Positions 37,201 to 56,604 of a stretch of DNA of 64,000 nucleotides are shown here, in pieces. Position 1 is the first letter of the stretch. Every line of letters starts with the position of its first letter. The notes beneath the pieces are model-generated. The model was not told the DNA's origin. It saw nothing but the letters and a program-made list of their open reading frames with translations, and did not search any database. Source of the stretch: Antedon mediterranea. Taxonomy: Eukaryota; Echinodermata; Crinoidea; Comatulida; Antedonidae. The position numbers and the translations under genes are program-made. The DNA lies in assembly GCF_964355755.1 (NCBI RefSeq), contig NC_092675.1, forward strand, positions 687,001 through 751,000, written 5' to 3'.

Positions 37201-39723
37201 GAAATCAGGTACAAACGTTTTTGGATCAATTGATTTTGAGTAATAGCTTTTTCCACACTTTTCTTTAAAATAAAAATGATTATGACTTATATAAAGACAA
37301 TGATATTACCAGTATTTCAAAATAAGTTTTAAAATTATATAGGATAGGAATCAACACTTGGTGATACTGGAAATGTTTCTGCTTGTAGTAATGTAGGCAA
37401 CAACATTCATATAGATTAATTTTATTTCTTCTACAGTAAACACTGCCAAATCAGAATCATGCTATAAATACGTGGTAAAGCGGAATATCATATCAACATC
37501 TTGTCTAGATATGGAGAAATATTGCAAGGAATCCGGGGGAGCTCCAGCCGTCATCAACAGCCTCCGAGAGTACCAAGAGTACAATGAGTTCGTACTAGAC
37601 GTAACTAATCTCAAAACATTTGATCCGGTTTATCGCAAGTTTCTTGTACATGTGGATTCTTTACCGATGGCTGGTTTGAATAGGACATGCTCTCAGGTTT
37701 TTGTGAAAGATGGCTGGCTGACAGATAACGGAGGATATATACTTAATCAACCATGTGCAGAGAAGACAATCGTCAACAGTATATTATGCGAATATAGTAA
37801 GCTAAAACATTTTATTATGATAATAAGGCTTCTAAGAAAAAAGTTGAAGAATTACCTATATAACATAATAAACCGCATAAGAACTAGATTTAAACTCTGT
37901 TGATTATTATCTCTATCCATATTATTACACAATAGGCCTACAGTTAAAAATGTACCTCGATTCAGTTTAAGCCTACTCTTGTAAACATTTTAATTGTGTA
38001 TGTTTTGTTATTAGATTCAAAAATTAAAACGGAACCAATATGTGCAATACCAACACCAACACCAACACCAAAGCCAGCGACAACAACCTTACACACGACA
38101 ACGACTCTAACACAACAGGAAAACGTTACCATTCCCATGATGTCATCCACTATGTTCCCCACTCCAAATCGTGATGTGCGTGACGACAGAAAAACCATCG
38201 GTTTTGCCGCAACCACAGTAACGATCATTGGGCTTCTAATTATGATAATCGCCTTACTCTCTTGTATGTTACTCTACATTGGTAAGCAAAAACACAAGCG
38301 AAAACAAGAGAGATATGTAGTCAGGTAATTTGACATGAACACATGTTTTTATTATAGTTCTTAACACAACTATACATTGCCAAATTTCCTTGTTTACCCA
38401 CTAAGCCTCTTTGGAATCTTTTAATTTTATTATATTAAATTTAACCTACTATAATATACCTGTCTCATTTGTATTTCTTATTACCACCTTCGTGCATTTA
38501 CTATTTTGTCACTAATAATCTACTATATGACCCCCTATGAAACATTCCTATTATCTTTTAGGGCTCATCAGGAGATAAGATCTGTTCATCTATACGACTC
38601 TCCCTTGGGTAAGTATAATTGACAAAAAACTTCCTCAATAATGAATGTCAATTTTGTGTCGAGATGAAACATTCTTTCTTTTTTATAACATAGCGAAAAT
38701 TATTCAATGACTTTTTTTCTTTATTGGCAAACACGGCGCAAACAGCAAAAACATTAACAAAAATTTAAAAAAATATTTCAAATAGAAAAAATGTATTCAA
38801 CCATTAAAATTGTCCAGTAAAAATGGAAAAGAAGAAACAAAATTAAATATTCTTTATTTTTTTTTTTTAAATTGTATAAAAACACTTGTTTTTATAATCT
38901 TTGTAAGACTATTCCATGCTTTAGGCCTATTAATACTTTAACGATATAAGGGTCTTTTTTCTTTGTAGCAATTTCCAATTCAATTATTATTCGATTTATT
39001 TTTTGTAAATTGAGAAAAAAATAACAAGAAAAACATTGTCATGGTTTTGTTTACTTCATCCATTAATAACTTTCTATTTTAGATGACTGGATGGATAAGC
39101 CGTACTTAGTTGCTAGTCAAAAACAAACACTTTATTCAAATTCTGACGAAACCAATTCCACCAGGCTTAGCGATGTCACCGACGAAACAAACAAAGATCA
39201 TTACATCACAACGTCCACATCGAGTACGAATAGTTATGAAAACCATCATCCCACGAACGATGATAACGAATATTTGTGCCCAATATCTCGAAACCAAGAC
39301 CAGACAAAGGAGTACTATAACGTATCCAGTTGTTCAAACCTAGACACGCTAGACGCGAGCATCATCAAACGGATTTACAACCCTCTTCGGCCTCAGAAAG
39401 ATCTAGTTTCTGAGACGAGTACAAATAAATACAAGCCTACTAAACCAGTTAAATACAATTACGACAAGTTATCTAGAAGTTCAACAATGGTGTCAATGCC
39501 AAACCAATTCAAGTCAAAACCCCCCAATGTTAGACCCCCAAATGTTACACCATGTAGACCCCCTAAAGGCATTGGACACTGCAACATCGCTGTGCAATAT
39601 ATGCAGCCAGGTGCCGTAAAAACGGGATATCACCACCTGGAACGCCGCTGTGCAACTATGAACATTGGGGGTACGAATGACCATGATTACTCACGACTCG
39701 CAATGAGTGACACTGCAACATAA
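31298..39723 (+). CDS. Receptor-like type I membrane protein, CTLD-like ectodomain
   Basis: Six exons joined in frame: 31298-31377, 32226-32329, 37437-37796, 38015-38324, 38562-38608, 39083-39723; 1,542 nt, 513 aa. A signal peptide (about residues 1-23, VLLVVLCIFTSA) is followed by a Cys-rich ectodomain. Exons 2 and 3 give DECYLFYTYRGSW, SCYKYV, CKESGGAPAVINSLREYQEY and NSILCEY, resembling a divergent C-type-lectin-like fold; no QPD/EPN sugar-binding triplet was seen. A Thr/Pro mucin-like stalk precedes one membrane span (about 243-271, TIIGLLIMIIALLSCMLLY). The 240-residue tail is basic next to the membrane and Tyr-rich, including Y352-E-N and Y378-Y-N (Grb2-SH2-like YxN) and NEYLCPI. I do not recognise an orthologue. 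The exon 2 donor (G|GTATTA, before a 5.1-kb intron) is the weakest junction. A cell-surface recognition or signalling role is inferred. Confidence 0.75.
31652..31830. repeat. 89-bp direct duplication
   Basis: Two copies (starts 31652 and 31741) sharing GATGGCAATGTCTCTCATCT and ACATGTTGCC(C/T)GGTTGTTGT. It lies in intron 1 of the receptor-like gene. Confidence 0.92.
31985..32150. mobile_element. MITE, ACTATCAAAC family, long variant
   Basis: Left TIR AAAGCTCTGTCTCACTATCA, right TIR GATAGTGTAGACAGAGCTTA. The centre contains an extra repeated CATTACCATATTGGGCAAAT block. It ends about 75 bp before exon 2 of the receptor-like gene. Confidence 0.9.
34855..34979. repeat. 25-bp tandem repeat, 5 copies
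   Basis: Units of GCATATATCACACACTGCTT plus TAAAT repeated five times with one-base variation (AAGCAT against AGGCAT). Confidence 0.95.
36800..36905. repeat. Dispersed repeat with GGTCGG run, copy 1
   Basis: GACTCTACAGCTCACTATGT is followed by repeated GGTCGG/GGCCGG and TAAACACTAACTCAGATTT, then CTGCAGCCATGTATATG. An inverted relative is at 41185-41265, and a small piece (CATAGTGAGCTGTAGAGTCG) lies at 18255. Confidence 0.75.
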
Positions 39724-43639: not shown

Positions 43640-44152
43640 AAGATACCTCTATATTAGGGACTGCCTCTATATCAAAGAACACCTCTATATCAAAGAACAC
43701 CTCTATATTATATTAGGGACTGCCTCTATATCAAAGAAAACATCTATACCAAAGACAACCTCTATATTAGAGACTCCTATATCTGCAAAAAACAACCTCT
43801 ACTATATCTATTTTAAAGACTACAGTACCTCTAGAGATTACCTCTATAAAGACATCTTAAGAATCCTCTATTATCAGAGTCTGCCTCTATAAAGACTACC
43901 TTTATATCAGAGTCTGCCTCTATAAAGACTGCCTTTATATCCGAGTCTGCCTCTATAAAGACTACCTTTATATCAGAGTCTGCCTCTATAAAGACTACCT
44001 TTATATCAGAGTCTGCCTCTATGAAGACTACCTTTATATCAGAGTCTGCCTCTATAAAGACTACCTTTATATCAGAGTCTGCCTCTATAAAGACTACCTT
44101 TATATCAGAGTCTGCCTCTATGAAGACTGCCTTTATATCAGAGTCTTCCTCT
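43640..44152. repeat. 33-bp minisatellite, left block
   Basis: Degenerate CTCTATAT...AGA(G)AC units at the left become a regular 33-bp unit (CTATAAAGACTACCTTTATA plus TCAGAGTCTGCCT) between about 43870 and 44150. The array is split by a foreign segment at 44153. Confidence 0.92.
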
Positions 44153-44372
44153 ATCCTTCGGATGGGATGTAAAGCCGTTGGTTCCGTGTACTTAACAATG
44201 CATGTTAAAGAACTTGGTACACTATTCGAAAAGAGTAGGGGATCGTCTCCCGGTGTGCTAATCTGGTAGGCGCTGCACTGCTGGCTGCCGTGGGTCCGTG
44301 GAGGGCCTAATCCGAATTTCCTCAGTTTCCAGTTAAGCTTGAGGACAAATATGAAATACCTTTACCCTTACC
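44153..44372 (+). mobile_element. SINE-like insert inside the 33-bp array
   Basis: About 220 bp of higher-GC sequence (GATGGGATGTAAAGCCGTTG, TGTTAAAGAACTTGGTACAC, GTGGGTCCGTGGAGGGCCTA) ends in a short CCTTTACCCTTACC tail. The minisatellite resumes on the other side. The body is reminiscent of retroposon cores in marine invertebrates, but I cannot name the family. Confidence 0.55.
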
Positions 44373-44600: not shown

Positions 44601-45827
44601 CTCTGAATCGAAGAACATTTATTTTTGTTATTACTAGTAACCAGTGACATAGAAAAATAAGTATTTTATAATTAATAATAAGTATATTATAGTACTTTAG
44701 TCTAAAGATAGAAATAGTAATTTTGCATAGATTAAGTACAGGTAGTATCAATTATATAATAGAATTGTTTTAATATAAATTAATGATTTGACATTAGGTG
44801 GGTTTTGAAAGGAAAGCGAAAGCCAAGAGACACAGTGGGTGGTGTTGTATTATTTTAACAATTAATATCACAAATTTGTCATAATCTAATTTTTCATATA
44901 GTATACGTAGCTGCCAGGCGAGATATTATACAATTAAAAATTATATATGTTTAGTGCATTTGTGATTATGTACATTATAAATTGCATATAAATAAATTAT
45001 GTATATTTGATTTCTTTCTAAAAACATTTTCCAAAAATGTTATTCATACAAAAAATTTATCTTTCTAAAAAACTACAAAAATGGTAATTAAATTTATTGG
45101 AATAATCATTCCTAATTAGTATATAGAATAGAGTACAAAAATTACTTTTATTTAAAAATACATTTTTATACATATTCTTTATTTAATGTATTTCACGGCA
45201 TGAAATGGGTGGGCCTTACCTTTCTGTTATAGCAGATTGGTTTCAGCAAAAGAAATGTTATAGTAATTAATAATTTATTGTTAATTAGCAATATAATTTA
45301 TATTAGTAATTTTCAAAAAACAAGTTTGATTTTTAAAATAAATTATATCATTAATATTTCATGTTAATATTTTTTATTTTATTTTTGTAACATAAGTCTA
45401 CTATATAGTAACTGCTACTCTGAGCTGGTATTAAATGCTTTAAATTGTTAAGAAAGAATATAAAACAAAACAAACAATAGATATATGAACCCTGAAATAT
45501 AGTATTTCTTAGCTAACCACTGTCCACTGGTCTGTGTTATTCTTTAATAAAAAATAAAGTTATTTCTGTCTGTGTAAACCAATTTAATATTGAATATTTA
45601 ATGAATATTTATGAGTGGAATGGATATTAGTATCTATCTATCTAAATATCTATCTTTCAACTTTTAAAATATTCTATCCATTCAACAAATAAAAATGCAT
45701 TATTTGTTTTATAACACACCTACTGTGAATGTCAAAGGCCCATCCATAAATACAGGTTTTGGAATTGGCTGTGTAGTAGAGCTATTATGGATGGTGTACA
45801 GGTTGGTCTGTATGTTAGTGTCTGTTG
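44601..45827. other. AT-rich intergenic DNA
   Basis: No gene was seen. A decayed inverted repeat at 45598-45720 (GAATATTTATGAGTGGAATGG against CTATCCATTC...GCATTATTTGTTTTATAAC) resembles the hairpin arms at 2450-2634. Confidence 0.45.
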
Positions 45828-45950
45828 TCATGTTAACTTGGTTGTTGATATATCTTCACTTGTTACTGCCATAACTTTCTGGTAGTTATATAATAATAAT
45901 TCCTCTTGTATTTGTGTTACCATTAACATGTTGATAATTAAGCCAAAAAT
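45828..45950 (-). CDS. Alternative last exon of the tetraspanin (distal)
   Basis: A 123-nt open exon with acceptor TTTCATTTCAG and its own TGA stop. It starts in phase 0, matching the donor of tetraspanin exon 7 (50768). It encodes IFGLIINMLMVTQIQEELLL, then YNYQKV and a polar end KLT (40 aa). This completes the fourth membrane span and resembles the TSPAN33 end (VGILLSQILVNQIKDQ) more than the proximal last exon does. The tail contains YQKV, a YxxPhi sorting motif absent from the proximal exon. It is 3.6 kb downstream of the proximal exon on the same strand. Alternative use is inferred; an unrelated gene fragment is the other option. Confidence 0.7.
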   Translation of the reverse strand: MFGLIINMLMVTQIQEELLLYNYQKVMAVTSEDISTTKLT

Positions 45951-46984
45951 CTGAAATGAAAGGCAAAAGGTATAATAATAGTAATAAATTATGATGGTAG
46001 ATAAAAACAATAATTATTATATACTGTATGAATATTATTTAATTTAGTGGGGTTTGAAAGCACTGGCATTAGCCTAGGACAATAGTAATGGTAATAAATT
46101 ATATAAAGAAAAAAGAGGTATGTTACAATTTGTTTACACTTTTTTTTACATTTTATTTCAAGCTTTTCTTTTTCATTTTTGGCTCATTTTCTAAAATGAT
46201 ATTCGAACGCTAGAAATCTTTTCTAAGCAAAATAAAGAGAAACAAACTCAGAACTTTGCATTAAATTGTTTAAGAAAGACGATAGTAACTGCAATACACA
46301 CTGAGAAAAAGAAAAACACATTAGTGTTCAATTTTTGTTATTGCAACTTTATAAAACTTTTTTGGTTTTCTTTATAGTAGCTAATCATCATTACTAAATT
46401 CCTCTTTTATTAAGTTTTATAGACATTTTTATTTGTTTTATCTTTGATATCTTCTATTTTAATTTATTTTTTTTTTCTGTTTTATTTTTCATTGTATTTT
46501 TTGGATATGGAAATTATTTTGTGACACTAACTGATTTCTGTATTTTCACTAAAGTTAGTTATAGCGATCAGCATAATATAACTTTCAAGTCCAGTAAATA
46601 CTGTTATTAACTAATTTTGATATTGTTAATATTCAGAAAAGCAATATTGAATATTTTAAGTTTTAGAATATTAATTTGCAAACCAATATGTACTGCAGCA
46701 AATATAAAATGGTTAAATCTAAAAAATGAGTAAATATATAAGTATATAATAATAAGTATGAAATACTTATACTGGTCCAGTGAGTTTAGTATGAAATATT
46801 CTATATAAACATTAATAATACATCTACCAAATGAATGTATTAATTATTAAACCATACAAAGGATTTAATAAGAAGCAACAGTGCCAGTTATTGAATGTAA
46901 ACAAATGAAAGATACAATTAGATGATATATATATATACATACAAATATTGTGAATTACAGATTTTCATGCAAAAGTAACATATT

Positions 46985-47120
46985 ACACTACAGTAAAAGC
47001 CTTTCTTTGGGACACCCCTGAAGAACGAATGGAACAATCTATGTTTGAATACTACAGTCAACTCCTACCTACACTATGCTGGGGCCTGAAAGTGTCCCCT
47101 TCATAGGGGTTCAAGTGTAA
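46985..47120. repeat. Dispersed repeat, relative of 23785-23925
   Basis: Contains TTGGGACACCCCTGAAGAAC and GAAAGTGTCCCCTTCATAGG, i.e. the inverted ends seen in the MTREX intron copy. Confidence 0.5.
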
Positions 47121-47786
47121 TTATAAATAATTAAATATAATTGCTTTAGATTACTAATTTACTTATCTTTGTACATAGCGGCCTTTATATGACCATTTTT
47201 AGCATGCTTTCTATAATGTAGTCTGGTCTAGCAAAATGGAATGTGTGACACGTCCAAAACAAGTATGTATGAATACATCCTACTGGTCCAGTGATCGAAG
47301 CCTGAATATACTTGTATGTAAACAATGCATAAGGATAATTTACACAGACAAGCGGTTACGGTATAAGTGGAAAGCCGCATAGCTTGTACTACATAGAATC
47401 TGTATCCTCAACGGAAACCGCCTCACCGCTCCACGTTTGTGTACATGGAGGAATAACATAGATTCTATATTTTTATTATCATTACCGCTCATCTGTGTAA
47501 ATTGACCTTCAATCATAGTACTTACAAACTTCTTTTATTTGTATCTCCATTGAGATCCAGCCATGGATACCCACAGCATTGTCATTTTGTTTGTAATTTG
47601 CCTTTTGATTTTTATAGTATAGTAAAGAGGAAATGTTATTAAAGCTATTTAAGAGTTTCACCTAGATTAAATATTCCATCAATAAATGAAATGGTATAAC
47701 ATGAAAATGAACCACTGAATATTAATATTTAAAATTTGACAATCATAATATTCACTGTGAACAAAAATAATATTTTTTAGTTCCAC

Positions 47787-47918
47787 TAAAACTCTGTCTA
47801 CACTATCAAATTAACTCTATGTGACAGAAATCTGATCTGCCCATTTATGGACATGATGATGTCATCAACATTTTTGTGACAAACTAGAACTAGTTTGATA
47901 GTATAAACAGAGCTTTAT
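47787..47918. mobile_element. MITE, ACTATCAAAC family
   Basis: TIRs AAACTCTGTCTACACTATCA and GATAGTATAAACAGAGCTTT with a shortened centre (GGACATGATGATGTCATCA). Confidence 0.9.
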
Positions 47919-49340
47919 AAGCAATTTGCTTCTAATTTTCGAAAAATTAAATCAATCAACATTCATACACAAGTAATGACTGCTATATTTTCCAGTGTCT
48001 CAACCTAATTGTAAAAATCTATTAATAGTAACCTAGCTTTTCAGATTCTTAATTTTCTTTTAAATTTTTAGATATCGTCACTTTTAATTTTAAAGTTTTA
48101 TAATTTTATTTCTGTCTAATGTCAATTATGTAGTTATCACCTATGAATAAATCCTATTTTTTTTACACTAATCCCTCAAATATTATGTTAACTGTTTCAA
48201 ATTTGTTTTTGCGGGTTACCGATAAATCCACATTTTAAAATGAAAGATGTTAAAATAGATGTATGCATTTTCTTATCAATTATAATTTTAGCTTAAATTC
48301 CTCTTAATATAGAAATATAAAACTATTATTCAATTAAATGTTGGAAGTTGGCAGGGCTTGAACATTGTAAAATGAAATGTAAAATAATTATCTTTGTGTT
48401 GCATTATATTTATGTATAAACTTAATAAATAAATATTAAAAGAATATTTATGAATGTTAATATGAAGCTATTTTATATTTTTATAATATAAATAAAGCAA
48501 ACAATTTTATTAGCACAAAGAAAAAATAATAAGTTTCCTTCCTCTTATAAAATGAAATATAGAAAAGATATTTTTAATGTAATATAGGAAACATTAAAAT
48601 TCTAACAGCAAAATAATTAAATGAAAACAAATTAGTTGATGAGTTTGAATAAAATAATGAATATACTGTATGATAAAAAGAAATCAACTTCAATATCAAT
48701 CTGATATTTGGTTATATAATAAATAGTAAGTGTTAGGCAATCCAAGATGCACAGTAGTGGCATTCATCAGTCACATGATACCTAGAGTGCATTCAAAGTA
48801 AACAAGTTAGTGCGACTTAAGTGCTGCTTATCGTGGCCATCACCAGCAGTGGTTAAACCCCACAACGGCTACTGCTGCAATATATCATGGGTTTTTAGTA
48901 ACAGATTAGGAAATGTTTTTTTTCAATGGAAAATTGGTTTCAAGTTGAAGAAAAAAAAGAGGAAAAGAAATGTGATTTTTAATAACATTTGGAGAATTGA
49001 TTAAATAAGATGATGGTAATAACAGGGAGTTACAACTCCCTGGTAATAATAGATTGATAGGGCAGTGATTGGTTGAAGTTGAATATAAGAGCACAAAATG
49101 ACGCAATCTTTTTCATATGATCATGATGACAACTTTGGATATGTTACCATGGTTAGTTACTCCACTCTCAATTTCAAATAAAATTTGTAACCCCTTTCTC
49201 CCGACAGCTTTAGAAATAATTACACAAAATAAGTTTTAATTAAAATCAATTGCCTTTTTGTAGGAAAAAAAACAGAAAACATTTATTTGTGTGACAATAA
49301 CAAAATAGAAATGAAATTTAGGAAGAATGACCCATATTAA

Positions 49341-49502
49341 GAATGACCCATGTTATATTGCAGTAGTAAATGATAAGGTAATAAGGTGTCACTGTGCAGT
49401 GTGCTGCCCCCACGTGTTGGAAGAATGACCCATGTTATATTGCAGTAGTAAATGATAAGGTAATAAGGTGTCACTGTGCAGTGTGCTGCCCCCACGTGTT
49501 GC
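49341..49502. repeat. 82-bp direct duplication
   Basis: Two nearly perfect 82-bp copies (starts 49341 and 49423), each with GTGTGCTGCCCCCACGTGTT, which includes a CACGTG E-box. It lies just 3' of the proximal tetraspanin stop and is probably in its 3' UTR. The sequence is unrelated to the 82-bp unit at 5816. Confidence 0.95.
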
Positions 49503-49554
49503 ATTTCACCATGAACTTACGCACATGAGAAGAAAATAATGAATTAAGCAGAAA

Positions 49555-52500
49555 TTATTCTGTGGTTTTGTCTGGCAATTCAGCCGCATCTATCATATCA
49601 GCTTCCGCATACAAATTCTCATCTTTTATTTGCTGGATAAACCCAAAGGTCATCCAAATCCCTGCCACCTGTAAAGATTGAAGGTTAAAGGTCGAACGAA
49701 GTGCAAAGAGTAAATGTTTGAAATGACTGGATTTGAGCAGATACAAAATCATCTAATGATTGATTCATCAGTGACAATGTTCAAAAGTATTTAAAAACCA
49801 TTTTAAAATGATGACAAACCATACATTACTAATCAATGAGTTAAACAATTTTAAAAAGTGTAACCCAAGTGTATAGGCTACGTATGTGCTAGTTCGACAC
49901 AAATAACACATGTTGTTGAAAATGATTAATTATGACAAATTTCAAATATCTTTATTATTATTTGTTCTCATGTCTTAAGAAGTTTAACCACCACCGCAAA
50001 AAGAAAAATAATAATTGTTAGTTTCTGCATACCAACCAATACATGCCATTCAAAACCCAACATACTCATTTTAAAACGTAATGTACATATAGTACAGTAT
50101 ACGTTTTTAAGACAATATGAAGTTCTCCAAAAAATACAGAACCTGTGTTGCTTTTTGAAAGTTAGTAACAATGTTTCCATAAAATCTCTGCTGTTGCTAC
50201 AAGTTAACGATGTAACTGTGATCGATCAACCAAACAAATTGAGAAAGTTGTTTTCAATTTGTTTGCAATGATTTGCAACATTGGCCAATCACAAGTTTAG
50301 TTAACGTACGTGGTGTATATGCAATTTTTAGCTGAGCACTGCAAGATCAATCTAGAAGTATTTCCATGGAATCTCTACTCACTATCACTGACAGGCAGTG
50401 TAGCAATTATATGAAAACCAGTCTTATAGTAATTTGATCAAACCAGTGTATATACAGTAGTACATGTGTTTAGAAACAGCTATATGTTTGTAACTTTTTC
50501 TTTATTCCACGGAAACATGATTGAAAACCTGGTTTTCATATGCACACTACACATAGGATTGATATTTTTTCCTGAAATATCTTAAATCTTTCAAAATGTC
50601 CTAAACAATGGTTACCAAAACAAGTAAGTAAACCTTGATAAAGACTGCAAACCATACATCCCTATACTTCATGCTGAATTTCATTCAGAACCAAAAATTG
50701 GCAAAACATTATTTTCATTCGATTAGTAAACCATTCTAGATTATTAAAATAAATCAGTAATGTATACCTGTGGCAGGGCGAATCCAAGTATGACACCAGC
50801 TATGAGGGCTAAGTTGTCCTCTAACCAAGTACTAAAAGCGTCTACGCATCCACTGATGTAGATTTTACCTTGTAACTCAAGCCGATTAGTAACTCCTTCA
50901 CGAATTCCATTTCCACATTGAGTGTTTGGTATCATTTCATCCTATGGAAAAAAAAATACATTTCAGATACAATACAAGATTAAATATTGAAAATACAGAC
51001 TTGTTTAAAAGGTTGATTACTTTTTAATTATAAAATACAAGCATTTGATGACTACCACTGTAAACATTGCATCACATGTGACTACCACTGTATACATTGC
51101 ATCACATGTTCATTCGTCACAAATATTGCATTTAGGAATTATAAGCTGTGTCTACACTATCAAACTTTATGTGACAAAATAATGTGATGTGGCCATATAT
51201 GGACATGATGATGTGATATCACTACCATATATGGGCACAACACCCTTTGTTGTCACATAAAGTTTGATAGTGTAGAGCTTAAGAGAATCGGCTACAGTGA
51301 TGAGTCCCATTTTGAAAAATTGGTGCCACAGGACATTCTGGACTGGAACAATTTCAAGAAGTGTAGCAGAACAAACAGATCTTAATAAATTATGAAGAAT
51401 TTGTGTTGAATTAAACCACTTTAGTTTAAGTTTCTATCTTCAAAAATAGCATTAATAAAGAAACATCAAACAAATTGTGCAAAATTAGAAGATAATACAG
51501 AATAGGCATTTTATTTTGAAAACAGCATAATATCCAGTATGTGCTCAGAGAAGGAATTAAATGTGATAGATGGTGATTTTATAAATATAGTCGACGAATT
51601 AGTGAAGTGTGCCTAACAAGATGTGAAAAATCTCCACATCACTACAGTAGCTCAAAACTCCTGGTGGAACTAAGGATACACACAAACTGATGGTTATAGG
51701 GCTAGTGATCTACAGGTTGGGCCGGCCTCAAACCATCTTATTCAAAGGCATTCTCATAGGGCTAGTGATCTACAGATTTGGCCGGCCTCAAGTTCAAATG
51801 AAAAATCAATTTTATTCAAAGGCATTCTCATAGGGGTAGTGATCTACAGGTTGGGCCGGCCTCAAGTTCAAATGAAAAATCAATCTTATTCAAAGGCATT
51901 CTCATAGGGCTAGTGATCTACAGATTGGGTCGGCCTCAAGTTCAAATGAAAAATCAATCTCATTCAAAGGCATCCTCATAGGGCTAGTGATCTACAGGTT
52001 GGGCCAGCCTCAAGTTCAAATGAAAAATCAATCTTATTCAAAGGCATTCTCATAGGGCTAGTGATCTACAGATTGGGCCGACCTCAAGTTCCAATGAAAA
52101 AACAATCTTATTCAAAGGCATTCTCATAGGGCTAGTGATCTACAGATTGGGCAGACCTCAAGTTCCAATGAAAAACAATCTTATTCAAAGGCATTCTCAT
52201 AGGGCTAGTGATCTACAGATTGGGCAGACCTCAAGTTCCAATGAAAAAACAATCTTATTCAAAGGCATTCTCATAGGGCTAGTGATCTACAAATTGGGCT
52301 GGCCTCACGTTCCAATGAAAAACCATCTTATTCAAAGGCATTCTCATAGTACATACTGAATCTTTAGTATACAATTCACTCAAATACAACAATCTAATTA
52401 GTAAAGAACAACAATGTTTAAGAAGTTAAACCAATGTGATGATTTTATCATCTTACTTGTTGTTCCTGCAGAAGGAAAAATAAAATAATGTGAAAATAAT

Positions 52501-55500
52501 GTAATAATTACAAAAACATGTAAGTAATAAACAATAATATTAATAAAAGCATTTATAATACACCATATCAATGATTGTTCATAGGTGCAGTACATACATG
52601 TATTAAACCATTATATGAATTAAAATATTTAAAAAAAATTGTTATTTTACTGTTTTAGCAAGTTTTTATGCATGTTTTTAACCTTTTATTTTCTATAAAC
52701 AGGACCATATATAAAACAGGTGCTACATTCATCTATACCTGATATGTTTTATCCTGTATAAATATGTTTTTAAATAAATAAATAAAATATAAATTAATTA
52801 AGTAAAGTATAAAAAATGCAATGAAAAATACTAAGTTGTAGATTAAGATGTAAATGAGATTGAGTGTGTTGTTGATTCGAATACCTTGGGTACAACACAG
52901 CATGTGTATGGCACGCCACAGGAACTTGCAGATCGATGTGAATCGGTACACATGAAGTAAATATTTCCGTCCCAGTCATTAAAGTCAGCACCACCACAAC
53001 ATTCAAACTATATCACAAAAACAAGAAATAGTACCATATGTATTTGTATTAAAAAATATATTCTGATATCATAATCATAATAATTTCTAGTTTCAGTTTA
53101 TAAGTATATTCTATATAACAACAACAAAGCATAACATTATTTATTATAATATAAAATAATATAAACCATGATGCCATTGTGTTAAACAATTGTATAACTA
53201 ATGACCCCAGTGTTACATGAGAATTAGGAATTAAGTATACTTATGTGGCACAACAACATCCTGGTAAGACAATACCAGAGACCTTCACAAAAACAACAGT
53301 ATGAAACCTATAGAACAACCTTTCAATCCTGTATAACAGGATTATTGTACATATGTTATATTATTATTTAAAGAAAGGATTTTATGACTTTAAAACACTT
53401 TATAAACAATTGAAAGCAAGAAAATTGCAAATTACAGTATGAATAAACTATCATACAGTACTTGCCTTGTTTGAGGCTTTGGGAGTGGGGTAGAGAAAGT
53501 GAGTTATTTAAAGCCACTAGGTCAGGATTGAACCATAGACCCCGGGATTGGAAGGCAAGCATGTTATCACCAAGCTTCAACTGCACTACCATCACAGTTT
53601 ACTGATTGAATGCCTCTAGATACATTTCTGTTTAAGGAAATTGTTTTTTTTCAGTAAAACAGTTTTTATGCTGAAACTCAAGGATCTTCTGACAAAGACA
53701 AGTACATTGTGAAGGTAATCCACAGTGAGGAATAATAGAATAACAACAATGGGTTGAAAGGTTTAAAATCATAGATTTCCTACACCTGAGGTAATCCACA
53801 GTGAGGAATAATAGAATAACAACGATGGGTTGAAATGTTTAAAATCATAGATTTCCTACACCTGATCTACAAACAATAATAAGTTATATATACAAAATGG
53901 CCATAACAACAACAACCACTAAACAAGGATATTACAGTTGATATTAAATGTGTACAAAACTGTTTCATGGTGTGTATTAATAAACATCCACTGTACACAA
54001 ATTAAATTTCCTTTCGGACTACTAAATAATATTTGCATATTTAAATGCATAAAAATTCATATTTAAATGTATGCAAATTCATATTTAATTGTATGCAAAT
54101 TTATATTTAATTGTATGCAAATTCATATTTAATTGTATGCAAATTCATATTTAATTGTATGCAAATTCATATTTAATTGTATGCAAATTCATATTTAATT
54201 GTATGCAAATTAATATTTAATTGTATGCAAATTAATAAACAGATAAGTACCTACATTTGTTTGCATTGCATCTACAGCAAACTGAATATCAGGATCATTG
54301 TAATAGTTTCTGATAGAGTGCTGAAGCCCATCTTTTACAAGTTGTTGAGTCTAACAAAAAATACCACCATCTTTTAAATGAATTATTTACATGTAACACA
54401 ATCTCATTACTGTATACAAACAATTTAATCTCAGCACTAATTTAGACTAAATTTAGACATAATTCCATTGTTATATAGATATATTTCTCCCTTTGAAAAA
54501 ATAATTGTTTTAAATGTTTTTCCATTTTAATGTCACCTAATAGTTATTCACTTTGACAAAAATTTTGGATTGAAAAACAAATAATTTTCCTGAAAATTTT
54601 AAGTGAAAAATAGTCAAGATAGTACAATTTAAGCATTTATTTTGTCTTTTAATAAATGAAAACTTCATATTTTTACCGTTACAACATTTCACTCTAGTGA
54701 ATATTTCCAAGTGACTGTTGGTGAAATTACAAATTAAATGTTAGATACAAACTTACTTGACCCCTGAATGCCAACGCAAGAATAGCACCAATCAACTGAA
54801 GCGCAAACACAACAGCCAGTGTAATACCAAACTAACAAAAAACAATTAATGCAAAAATCAGTCGGTTATAGGATGGAAAAGTGATGCATTTAACAAAACA
54901 ATGAGTTTAAAATCACAAATTTCAAATGTTTAAAATAATATTTAAAAACAAATAATGTTTTTATATTTGTGCAATGGAACCAATATTTTCTTCCGCTTAA
55001 ATTAAAGGCGAAATGTTGAATTTTTACATCATGAAAATATTTGTACTATTGTACTCATTCATTATTTGTATAATATAAGAAACACTGCTGTGGTTATAGG
55101 AGTTCTATTGCATAATCAAAGTTATGAAGTACGAGGTTATAAATCTTGTTTGTATAGTGTAGATGATATGATATGAATGGATCTACTCTGTATTATTTTT
55201 TTAGTTTAGTGAGATAGGATGCTGTTTGGTTTGTTTGAAAGAGACCAACATGATATAAATGTTTGCTGAGCCTTTGTTCGGTTATCTTTGCCTTATATTG
55301 TTTACTTTCATTTTTTGTTAAATAAACAATCTTATTTACCCGTCTTTTAAATAAATTACAGTATAGTGGGTCATACAATTGACATGTGCATAACAATTTA
55401 ACAAAACTTACAATTCGTAGCAAAGTAATATTTTCTCGTAATGCTCCTATGCAGCCAATGAAGCCAAGAATAAACATGAAGGAGCCGACAACAATCATGA

Positions 55501-56604
55501 AAATAGTCGGGGTAAGAAGGACATCAACGACTGCTTGGTAGTCTTTCTTTTCTATTTCAGCATAAATACCCACACCTAAAATAACTACACCAATCAGCTA
55601 TGATAAAGAAAAAAAAAAGAGTTACTAATCCATGAAAAAGAAGTTTAAAAGGCCAGGTGCGGGCAAACAATTTCTATTGATCATACATTCCAATAATTAT
55701 CGATCTATAATTTGCCCTATGTTTAATAATTTTGGGGATTTTTGAGGTTGTTGAAAATAAGCACTTTCTTATCAGTGGGGGGATAGTTTAAATTACAATG
55801 TAAAATCTCTATTCTTTTGTACAGAAATTTTGTAAATAGAAAGGCACTTTAAAAAGCTATGAAAAATAAACAGTGTTGTAAAAAATGTTATCAGGTGACT
55901 AAAATAGGCAATATAACTTGAATTTTACATTTCTGGTATTTTTATTCAACTTCAGATTTTTATTTTCATGCTATAGCAAAAATTATCCACTGTATATCCA
56001 CCATCTTTTTTCACTTTCTAGGGAGTCACCAGACATGTTATTACATTAGGTTAAACTACCTAACTACTGGAAAAAGCCTTCCTGGTTTTTATGGCAGAAT
56101 GTTGCCAAATTTTATATTTGACCATATTAAGGAAAGGTTTTTCGTCTTGATTTCTGTTACAATTTGATTTATGTACAATTAACCATATTATATTTAAAAT
56201 TCATGCATGTACCGGAGCTTTAAAAAGTTACATACAGGTATGAATCCATTAAATAATATTTCTGACAAAAACACTTTTATTGCATGTTTAATAACATCCA
56301 GAAACTGAAAAATATTCTAATTTCAATTTTCTAAAAACTGTATTTGAATAAACGCCTGGATGGTTTTTAGGGGATATTCAGGGAAGGCGTTTATTTAAAG
56401 TGGGCGTTTATTCCAAATAATATGTTATTGGGGACGTTTATTCAAGGGAAGCGTTTTTCAAAGCAGGCAGGGTGTTTCTTCAAATAAATACGGTACTTGT
56501 GAGTTGTCACTACTTACCCAAAATCCTACATCATATAAAAATAGTATAATTCGCAAAATGCGATGACCACAGCTTGGTCTTGGAAGACGTTTCAAGGAAG
56601 GCAT
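49555..56604 (-). CDS. TspanC8 tetraspanin, TSPAN33-like
   Basis: A four-span membrane scaffold of the TspanC8 group, whose vertebrate members regulate ADAM10. Exons in order: 56518-56604, 55412-55597, 54757-54831, 54255-54350, 52885-53007, 50768-50941, 49555-49668; all phase 0; 855 nt, 284 aa. TM1 spans about residues 17-43 (RIILFLYDVGFWLIGVVIL). TM2 ends GFIGCIGALRENITLL. TM3 is LAVVFALQLIGAILALAF. The large loop has eight cysteines: ECCGG, YFMC, SSCGVPYTCC, NTQCG, SGC. TM4 is ALIAGVILGFALPQ. The spacing CC-x12-C and VILGFALPQ favour TSPAN33. The proximal tail ends ELPDKTTE. The start is the first ATG of the exon entered from acceptor 56668. An alternative last exon is at 45828-45950, and a possible microexon at 52457-52465. 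Confidence 0.93.
51142..51282. mobile_element. MITE, ACTATCAAAC family
   Basis: TIRs TAAGCTGTGTCTACACTATC and GATAGTGTAGAGCTTA; the right TIR has lost a few bases. It lies in the tetraspanin intron upstream of exon 7. Confidence 0.92.
51693..52350. repeat. 74-bp minisatellite, about 9 copies
   Basis: Units of CTCATAGGGCTAGTGATCTA, a CAG(G/A)TTGGGCCGGCCTCAAG block and TTATTCAAAGGCATT. Moderate divergence and small deletions occur between copies. It lies in a tetraspanin intron. Confidence 0.95.
52457..52465 (-). CDS. Possible 9-nt microexon of the tetraspanin (EQQ)
   Basis: GAACAACAA sits between a strong acceptor (TTTTTCCTTCTGCAG) and a strong donor (GTAAGA) in the intron between the exons at 52885 and 50941. 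Phase is 0 on both sides, so inclusion would add Glu-Gln-Gln between the CC pair and NTQC in the large loop. Skipping gives the family-typical 12-residue spacing, so inclusion would be an optional variant. This is inference from splice signals only. Confidence 0.4.
53468..53592 (-). repeat. tRNA-derived SINE
   Basis: On the minus strand: AAGCTTGGTGATAACATGCT (A-box region), CCTTCCAATCCCGGGGTC, B box GGTTCAATCC, then CCCCACTCCCAAAGCCTC. The family matches 28385-28503. Confidence 0.72.
53712..53865. repeat. 76-bp direct duplication
   Basis: GGTAATCCACAGTGAGGAAT starts at 53714 and again at 53790, followed both times by GGGTTGAAAKGTTTAAAATC. Two copies with few changes, in a tetraspanin intron. 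Confidence 0.93.
54042..54236. repeat. 22-bp array carrying eight POU octamers
   Basis: The unit TATGCAAATTCATATTTAAT plus TG gives a perfect ATGCAAAT octamer at 54071, 54093, 54115, 54137, 54159, 54181, 54203 and 54225, exactly 22 bp apart. The array ends about 20 bp from the donor of tetraspanin exon 4 (54255). ATGCAAAT is the classic Oct/POU binding site; a regulatory role is inferred. Confidence 0.93.
56338..56500. repeat. Dispersed repeat with GCGTTTATT words
   Basis: GCGTTTATTTAAAGTGGGCG, GACGTTTATTCAAGGGAAGC and related words repeat in both orientations. It is probably a decayed inverted-repeat element, ending just before tetraspanin exon 1's donor. Confidence 0.5.

Follow-up and report, generated by a model that had tools for sequence, protein, structure and literature searches.

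Tetraspanins of the TspanC8 group influence where ADAM10 acts, a protease that is essential to Notch signalling. The subject of this analysis is a tetraspanin gene on the minus strand of a 64-kb stretch of DNA (the window) of the crinoid Antedon mediterranea, which lies on contig NC_092675.1 (positions 687,001 to 751,000) in a genome of 354 Mb and 18 contigs; coordinates below count from the first base of the window. We read it, with a probability of about 0.72, as a Tspan15-like TspanC8 gene with mutually exclusive alternative last exons, a proximal one at 49555-49668 and a distal one at 45828-45950, each of which would complete the fourth transmembrane span (TM4) and provide its own cytoplasmic tail.

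Alternative tetraspanin ends are already known, and two in-frame, TM4-completing last exons in one TspanC8 gene would be a variant of these. In Tspan16 isoform 2 and Tspan17 isoform 3 of humans, splicing alters the coding end and the stop codon (PMC6773723), as it would here. Tspan16 exchanges its last coding exon with a shift of frame, the only such exchange in the human isoform table of that paper, and one of its two products has been called a trispanin; in Tspan17 isoform 3 the change stems from a different splice site within exon 8. These are frame shifts that lead to a new stop, whereas both exons of the Antedon gene are in frame and complete TM4. The same table lists a Tspan6 isoform 3 in which the C-terminal half of TM4 is missing and the C-terminus is a different one, and no exchange of the last exon appears in its rows for Tspan5, 10, 14, 15, 17 and 33. 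Human Tspan15 shares with the Antedon gene a large loop with the cysteine order CC-C-C-CC-C-C and an alignment over residues 17-266, but it is listed with one last exon, and its sole other isoform in Table 1 of PMC6773723 lacks exons 2-3. Among the titles listed by literature searches on tetraspanin alternative last exons, echinoderm tetraspanin splicing and Tspan15 C-terminal variants, none concerned this gene or such a case.

A close parallel to the arrangement comes from the laboratory. In the chimeras T5C15 and T15C5, part of TM4 and the tail were swapped (PMC6892437). The swap sites printed in that paper, LLPQFLGICLAQN and ALLQIFGVLLTLL, can be taken to place the join at the G that both have in common, a position that is our interpretation and that would lie about 3 residues past the point homologous to LPQ/IFG in the Antedon gene (here and below the slash marks the junction). 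The chimeras are man-made and combine two genes, whereas here both ends lie in a single gene, and the second need not be a Tspan5 tail. A TspanC8 tail with an assigned task is found in Tspan33, where it anchors the Tspan33-ADAM10 complex at junctions through the WW1 domain of PLEKHA7; according to the same source (PMC7363125) this needs the last two residues Trp-Tyr, and neither Antedon tail ends in this way.

The two last exons follow exon 7 (50768-50941), which was found by a protein search of the genome. It encodes the seventh and eighth loop cysteines and the first half of TM4, and its C-terminal end, ...LALIAGVILGFALPQ, closes in phase 0 before the donor GTATAC (borders AG/GTATAC), which places the junction inside TM4. 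Reading of the exon borders confirmed the first-pass annotation, which had this exon end in phase 0 at ...GFALPQ. The proximal exon has 114 nt and encodes VAGIWMTFGFIQQIKDENLYAEADMIDAAELPDKTTE and a stop (37 residues) behind the acceptor TTAACCTTCAATCTTTACAG, while the distal exon has 123 nt and encodes IFGLIINMLMVTQIQEELLLYNYQKVMAVTSEDISTTKLT and a stop (40 residues) behind the acceptor CCTTTTGCCTTTCATTTCAG. Both lie on the strand of the gene, start in phase 0, supply the second half of TM4 and carry their own stop, and the distal one contains the YQKV sequence; in all these respects, coordinates included, the anatomy that had been proposed from the letters is confirmed. The introns that run from the exon 7 donor measure 1,099 nt to the proximal and 4,817 nt to the distal exon. 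The highest 19-residue mean hydropathy is 2.15 with the proximal and 2.36 with the distal end, so that a hydrophobic span is completed by both, and the net charge from exon residue 14 onwards is -6 in the proximal and -2 in the distal tail. Neither exon contains a cysteine codon or a dileucine motif ([DE]xxxL[LI]). Compared with each other, the two exons score 20 over 22 residues (BLOSUM62), a value reached by 2 of 1,425 open reading frames (ORFs) against the proximal and by 3 of 1,425 against the distal exon, in a set that includes both exons themselves. A reasonable, though unproven, interpretation is that the TM4-tail exon was duplicated long ago.

The likeness of the two exons to known TM4 last exons was compared with chance in the window and 10 paralogue loci, read on both strands (184,620 bases with 8,843 AG sites). 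Every AG was treated as a potential acceptor, and the first 18 residues of all phase-0 ORFs of at least 20 amino acids were scored (BLOSUM62) against the last exons that encode TM4 in human Tspan15 and in paralogues in the Antedon genome. With four references, and with the weaker of the two exons defining the limits for homology and acceptor, four ORFs passed both limits: those of the paralogues L001 and L002 and the proximal and distal exons. L001 was among these references; L002 was not, and therefore serves as a fair positive control. In the scan with five references, which covered 2,334 ORFs, the paralogues L002, L006 and L001 scored 37.6, 36.0 and 32.6, all three being references, and were followed by the distal exon (17.0), the proximal exon (15.2) and the next-best ORF (7.8). 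A score of 15.2 was reached by 1 of 30,730 ORFs in 40 simulated windows and by 1 of 102,205 ORFs in 8 Mb simulated with the local AT-rich composition, where none of the 102,205 reached 17.0; since the score was devised after the exons had been seen, these figures are ranks and not formal probabilities. Both exons resemble TM4 last exons more closely than chance would produce.

The position of the junction, too, agrees with that in two paralogues. L001 and L002, which are multi-exon and TspanC8-like, have a single last exon that starts in phase 0 at the same aligned point, where AAFQ is followed by ITGIVLAYVLCREIENEK and LLVE by IFGVCFSQSLVNDIQHQK (in short, AAFQ/ITG and LLVE/IFG). The TM4 junction probably corresponds to the ancient intron 6 described in PMC2650405. 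In two further paralogues, L006 and L007, TM4 is encoded in one open frame together with part of the loop. Three closely spaced tetraspanin genes elsewhere in the genome (L003, L004 and L005, at G000:C10:15744600-15754200) each consist of one uninterrupted frame of 289-314 amino acids.

The assignment of the gene to a family rests on the loop and on profile scores. The core of the protein scored 156.6 bits with the Pfam Tetraspanin profile (PF00335, cut-off 32.1), which rose to 160.2 with the proximal and to 163.9 with the distal exon. The large loop has eight cysteines in the order CC-C-C-CC-C-C, the pattern of the TspanC8 or TSPAN15L group (PMC2650405), and the earlier statement that the gene encodes a TspanC8 protein is borne out by this order and by the Pfam score. 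The introns described for that group, all in phase 0, are 1, 2, 3, 4, 4b, 4c and 6 (PMC2650405); the Antedon gene has seven introns, all in phase 0, if a candidate microexon described below is counted. Among nine sequences from the PDB the best match was human Tspan15, which scored 214.1 bits for the protein with the distal end (residues 17-266) and 210.6 for that with the proximal end, with TM4 aligned in both cases, and the Tspan15 loop scored 92.9 bits compared with 79.3 for the Tspan10 loop. By its sequence the gene is a TspanC8 tetraspanin of the Tspan15-like kind, and orthology to Tspan15 in particular is likely rather than settled, since the chains of Tspan5, 14, 17 and 33 were outside this nine-sequence set.

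Several observations weigh against two functional ends. The guanine-plus-cytosine (GC) fraction of the distal exon is 0.276, compared with 0.279 in the intron before it, and its codon score lies within the non-coding range, with 39.7% of 441 null ORFs scoring as high; a codon test at synonymous sites has no power here, because exons that are certain span scores from -1.24 to 2.81. The proximal acceptor scores 1.24, a value that 1,526 of the 8,843 AG sites (17%) equal or exceed, under a small matrix built from nine sites whose own scores run from 8.18 to 14.88. The first-pass annotation had called both acceptors good; the distal one scores 5.25, and the proximal one is only moderate. When L001 and L002 were read downstream, each showed one last exon. 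Of the A[AT]TAAA hexamers, the first lies 267 nt past the proximal stop (an AATAAA at 49282-49287, minus strand, as a possible polyadenylation signal) and 225 nt past the distal stop, and the 1,500 nt beyond the stops hold 7 and 10, or 4.7 and 6.7 per kb, nominally more than the 3.8 per kb of the whole strand. As the hexamer is this common on the strand, the proximal AATAAA is weak evidence.

One rival reading is that only the proximal exon is used today and that the distal one is a relic, either of the former last exon or of a duplicated exon, still open but no longer spliced. A relic is conceivable because the distal exon is rich in AT and its codon use does not look like that of coding DNA; in both respects it resembles the surrounding intron, unlike the proximal exon. 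It also lies 3.6 kb farther away, and the proximal exon scores higher against L006 and L007 (7 and 10, compared with 1 and -1) and about equally against L001 (25 and 24). We nevertheless regard it as unlikely, given that the distal acceptor outscores the proximal one, that all 40 distal codons are open at 28% GC, and that the distal exon is nearer to human Tspan15 and L002 (31 and 30) than is the proximal exon (19 and 15). The stronger distal acceptor and the nearness of the distal TM4 half to human Tspan15 would also suit a gene in which the distal exon is the constitutive end and the proximal one a rarely used, premature last exon without a function of its own. That is very unlikely in view of the codon score of the proximal exon, which exceeds that of all 441 null ORFs, and of its intact TM4 half, which a non-functional exon would not need.

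It is scarcely plausible that the distal exon is part of a different transcript, or is a chance match in DNA that readily encodes hydrophobic residues, although the locus is AT-rich and the exon has 28% GC. None of the 102,205 simulated ORFs attained the distal score and the next real ORF stood at 7.8, while the position and phase of the exon fit the paralogue junction. As to a possible owner, a genome search with the protein listed no tetraspanin match between 45950 and 49555 (36 of 36 candidates scored), in a loose, exon-by-exon first look from which a short exon could escape. For the same reason a tandem gene is an unlikely source of the distal exon.

We return to mutually exclusive last exons in one Tspan15-like gene, and infer that both are used, that the product partners with ADAM10 in this animal, and that the choice of end has a consequence for trafficking. 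The exon 7 donor would be joined to the proximal exon by removal of the 1,099-nt intron, with cleavage and polyadenylation there, or, where the proximal exon is skipped, to the distal exon over the 4,817-nt intron. Both products would have one large extracellular loop in common; what would set them apart is the inner half of TM4 together with the entire cytoplasmic tail. Because the loop is identical, the contact with ADAM10 would presumably be the same in both; the proximal product would have an acidic end and the distal product a less acidic one with YQKV. The likely effect would be a change in the location and surface residence time of the tetraspanin and its partner protease. That the gene represents a natural, regulated tail swap within a single TspanC8 gene, brought about by an old duplication of the TM4-tail exon, is a doubtful proposal. 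If it is true, the animal's cells could form either of two complexes of ADAM10 with the tetraspanin, which would share their ectodomain but not their membrane halves and tails. The gene would then reproduce within itself the division of labour between Tspan5 and Tspan15, with splicing or polyadenylation, and not the choice of gene, as the switch. Two in-frame ends that part within about 3 residues of the chimera junction would constitute a natural experiment on the role of the tail with the loop held constant.

A YxxPhi motif (Y-x-x-[LIMFV]) occurs once in the distal exon, as YQKV, and is absent from the proximal exon. Such a motif was held by 25.8% of 383 non-coding tails with a mean length of 17 amino acids, so that its presence is not more than chance would give, and since the distal tail is longer than this mean the chance rate for it is higher still. 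YQKV is internal to the tail, with 14 residues after it. The short lysosomal signals of CD63 and of the LAMPs stand at the C-terminus, and lysosomal sorting is for this reason the weakest part of what had been proposed, namely that the two ends could switch endocytic or lysosomal sorting of a TspanC8 protein. The general idea has better support, since tail identity affects the trafficking of ADAM10 by TspanC8 proteins (PMC6892437, PMC7363125); the case for YQKV, a motif frequent by chance, is weak.

PMC6892437 describes opposite effects of Tspan5 and Tspan15 on ADAM10 endocytosis that loop swaps did not explain and to which the cytosolic domains contribute, along with other parts of the proteins. 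Tspan15 with its N or C tail replaced no longer inhibited Notch signalling, and Tspan5/Tspan15 chimeras at the C-terminal end altered the surface level or internalisation of ADAM10 or Notch signalling. According to work cited there, the C-terminus of Tspan33 was by itself enough to direct Tspan15 and ADAM10 to apical junctions. The Tspan33 tail binds PLEKHA7 (PMC7363125) and the Tspan5 tail binds AP4 (PMC9934860). By analogy with the chimeras and with these two tail interactions, a tail switch would be a reasonable function for the two Antedon ends, by whatever signal it might act.

The length of each of exons 1 to 7 is divisible by three, and AG and GT borders were found throughout. Coding exon 1 (56518-56604) begins with the start codon at 56604 and encodes the N-terminal tail and the start of the first transmembrane span (TM1) in the open frame MPSLKRLPRPSCGHRILRIILFLYDVGFW (ATG...GTAAGT). 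It is followed by exon 2 (55412-55597; phase 0, AG/GTAAGT), with the end of TM1, the small loop and TM2 and with a Pfam Tetraspanin match in the genome search, and by exon 3 (54757-54831; phase 0, AG/GTAAGT), with TM3. The large extracellular loop starts in exon 4 (54255-54350; phase 0, AG/GTAGGT) and continues in exon 5 (52885-53007; phase 0, AG/GTATTC) with ECCGG and loop cysteines 1-6. Exon 6 is a candidate microexon of 9 nt (52457-52465; EQQ), in which CTGCAG is followed by GAACAACAA and GTAAGA. No other YAG-9nt-GTRAG on this strand of the window has three open codons; the candidate has a 94% pyrimidine tract and a GTAAGA donor, and sits just after loop cysteines 5-6. Skipping or inclusion of this microexon would alter the extracellular loop; it was omitted from the protein used in the profile, PDB-sequence and genome searches. 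The intron between it and exon 7 contains a 74-nt tandem array (51735-52349; 8.3 copies, 94%). Retention of the exon 7 intron would add VYITDLF before a stop and give a third possible end.

Repeats are an unlikely origin of the last exons: each was found once in the genome in protein searches, and the DNA around the proximal exon matched itself alone. With the DNA flanking the distal exon as query, 40 of 148 candidates were scored, and the matches listed beyond the query itself belong to a dispersed repeat at about 45650-45750, past the stop. An Rfam scan of 38000-60000 gave nothing at gathering thresholds, and an exploratory search of bacterial and archaeal contigs for related sequences gave 40 stretches that fit the pattern, none of which was confirmed. 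The genome yielded one match to bindin (107.2 bits), a family of echinoderms, in keeping with its origin, whereas a search for COX1, intended to place the species through its mitochondrial code, had no hit. On the plus strand, and convergent with the tetraspanin gene, 37415-39723 contains open frames that by eye suggest a lectin-type ectodomain, a transmembrane span and a tyrosine-containing tail; two pieces of it were tested and gave no Pfam match. Just past the proximal stop, in the presumed 3' untranslated region, 49339-49501 consists of a tandem pair of identical 81-nt copies with a spacing of 82, and a genome search with it returned the window alone among the matches listed. Beyond the distal exon lies a 33-nt tandem array (43872-44154; 8.6 copies, 96%), whose frames stay open, so that long ORFs, probably not genes, appear on both strands.

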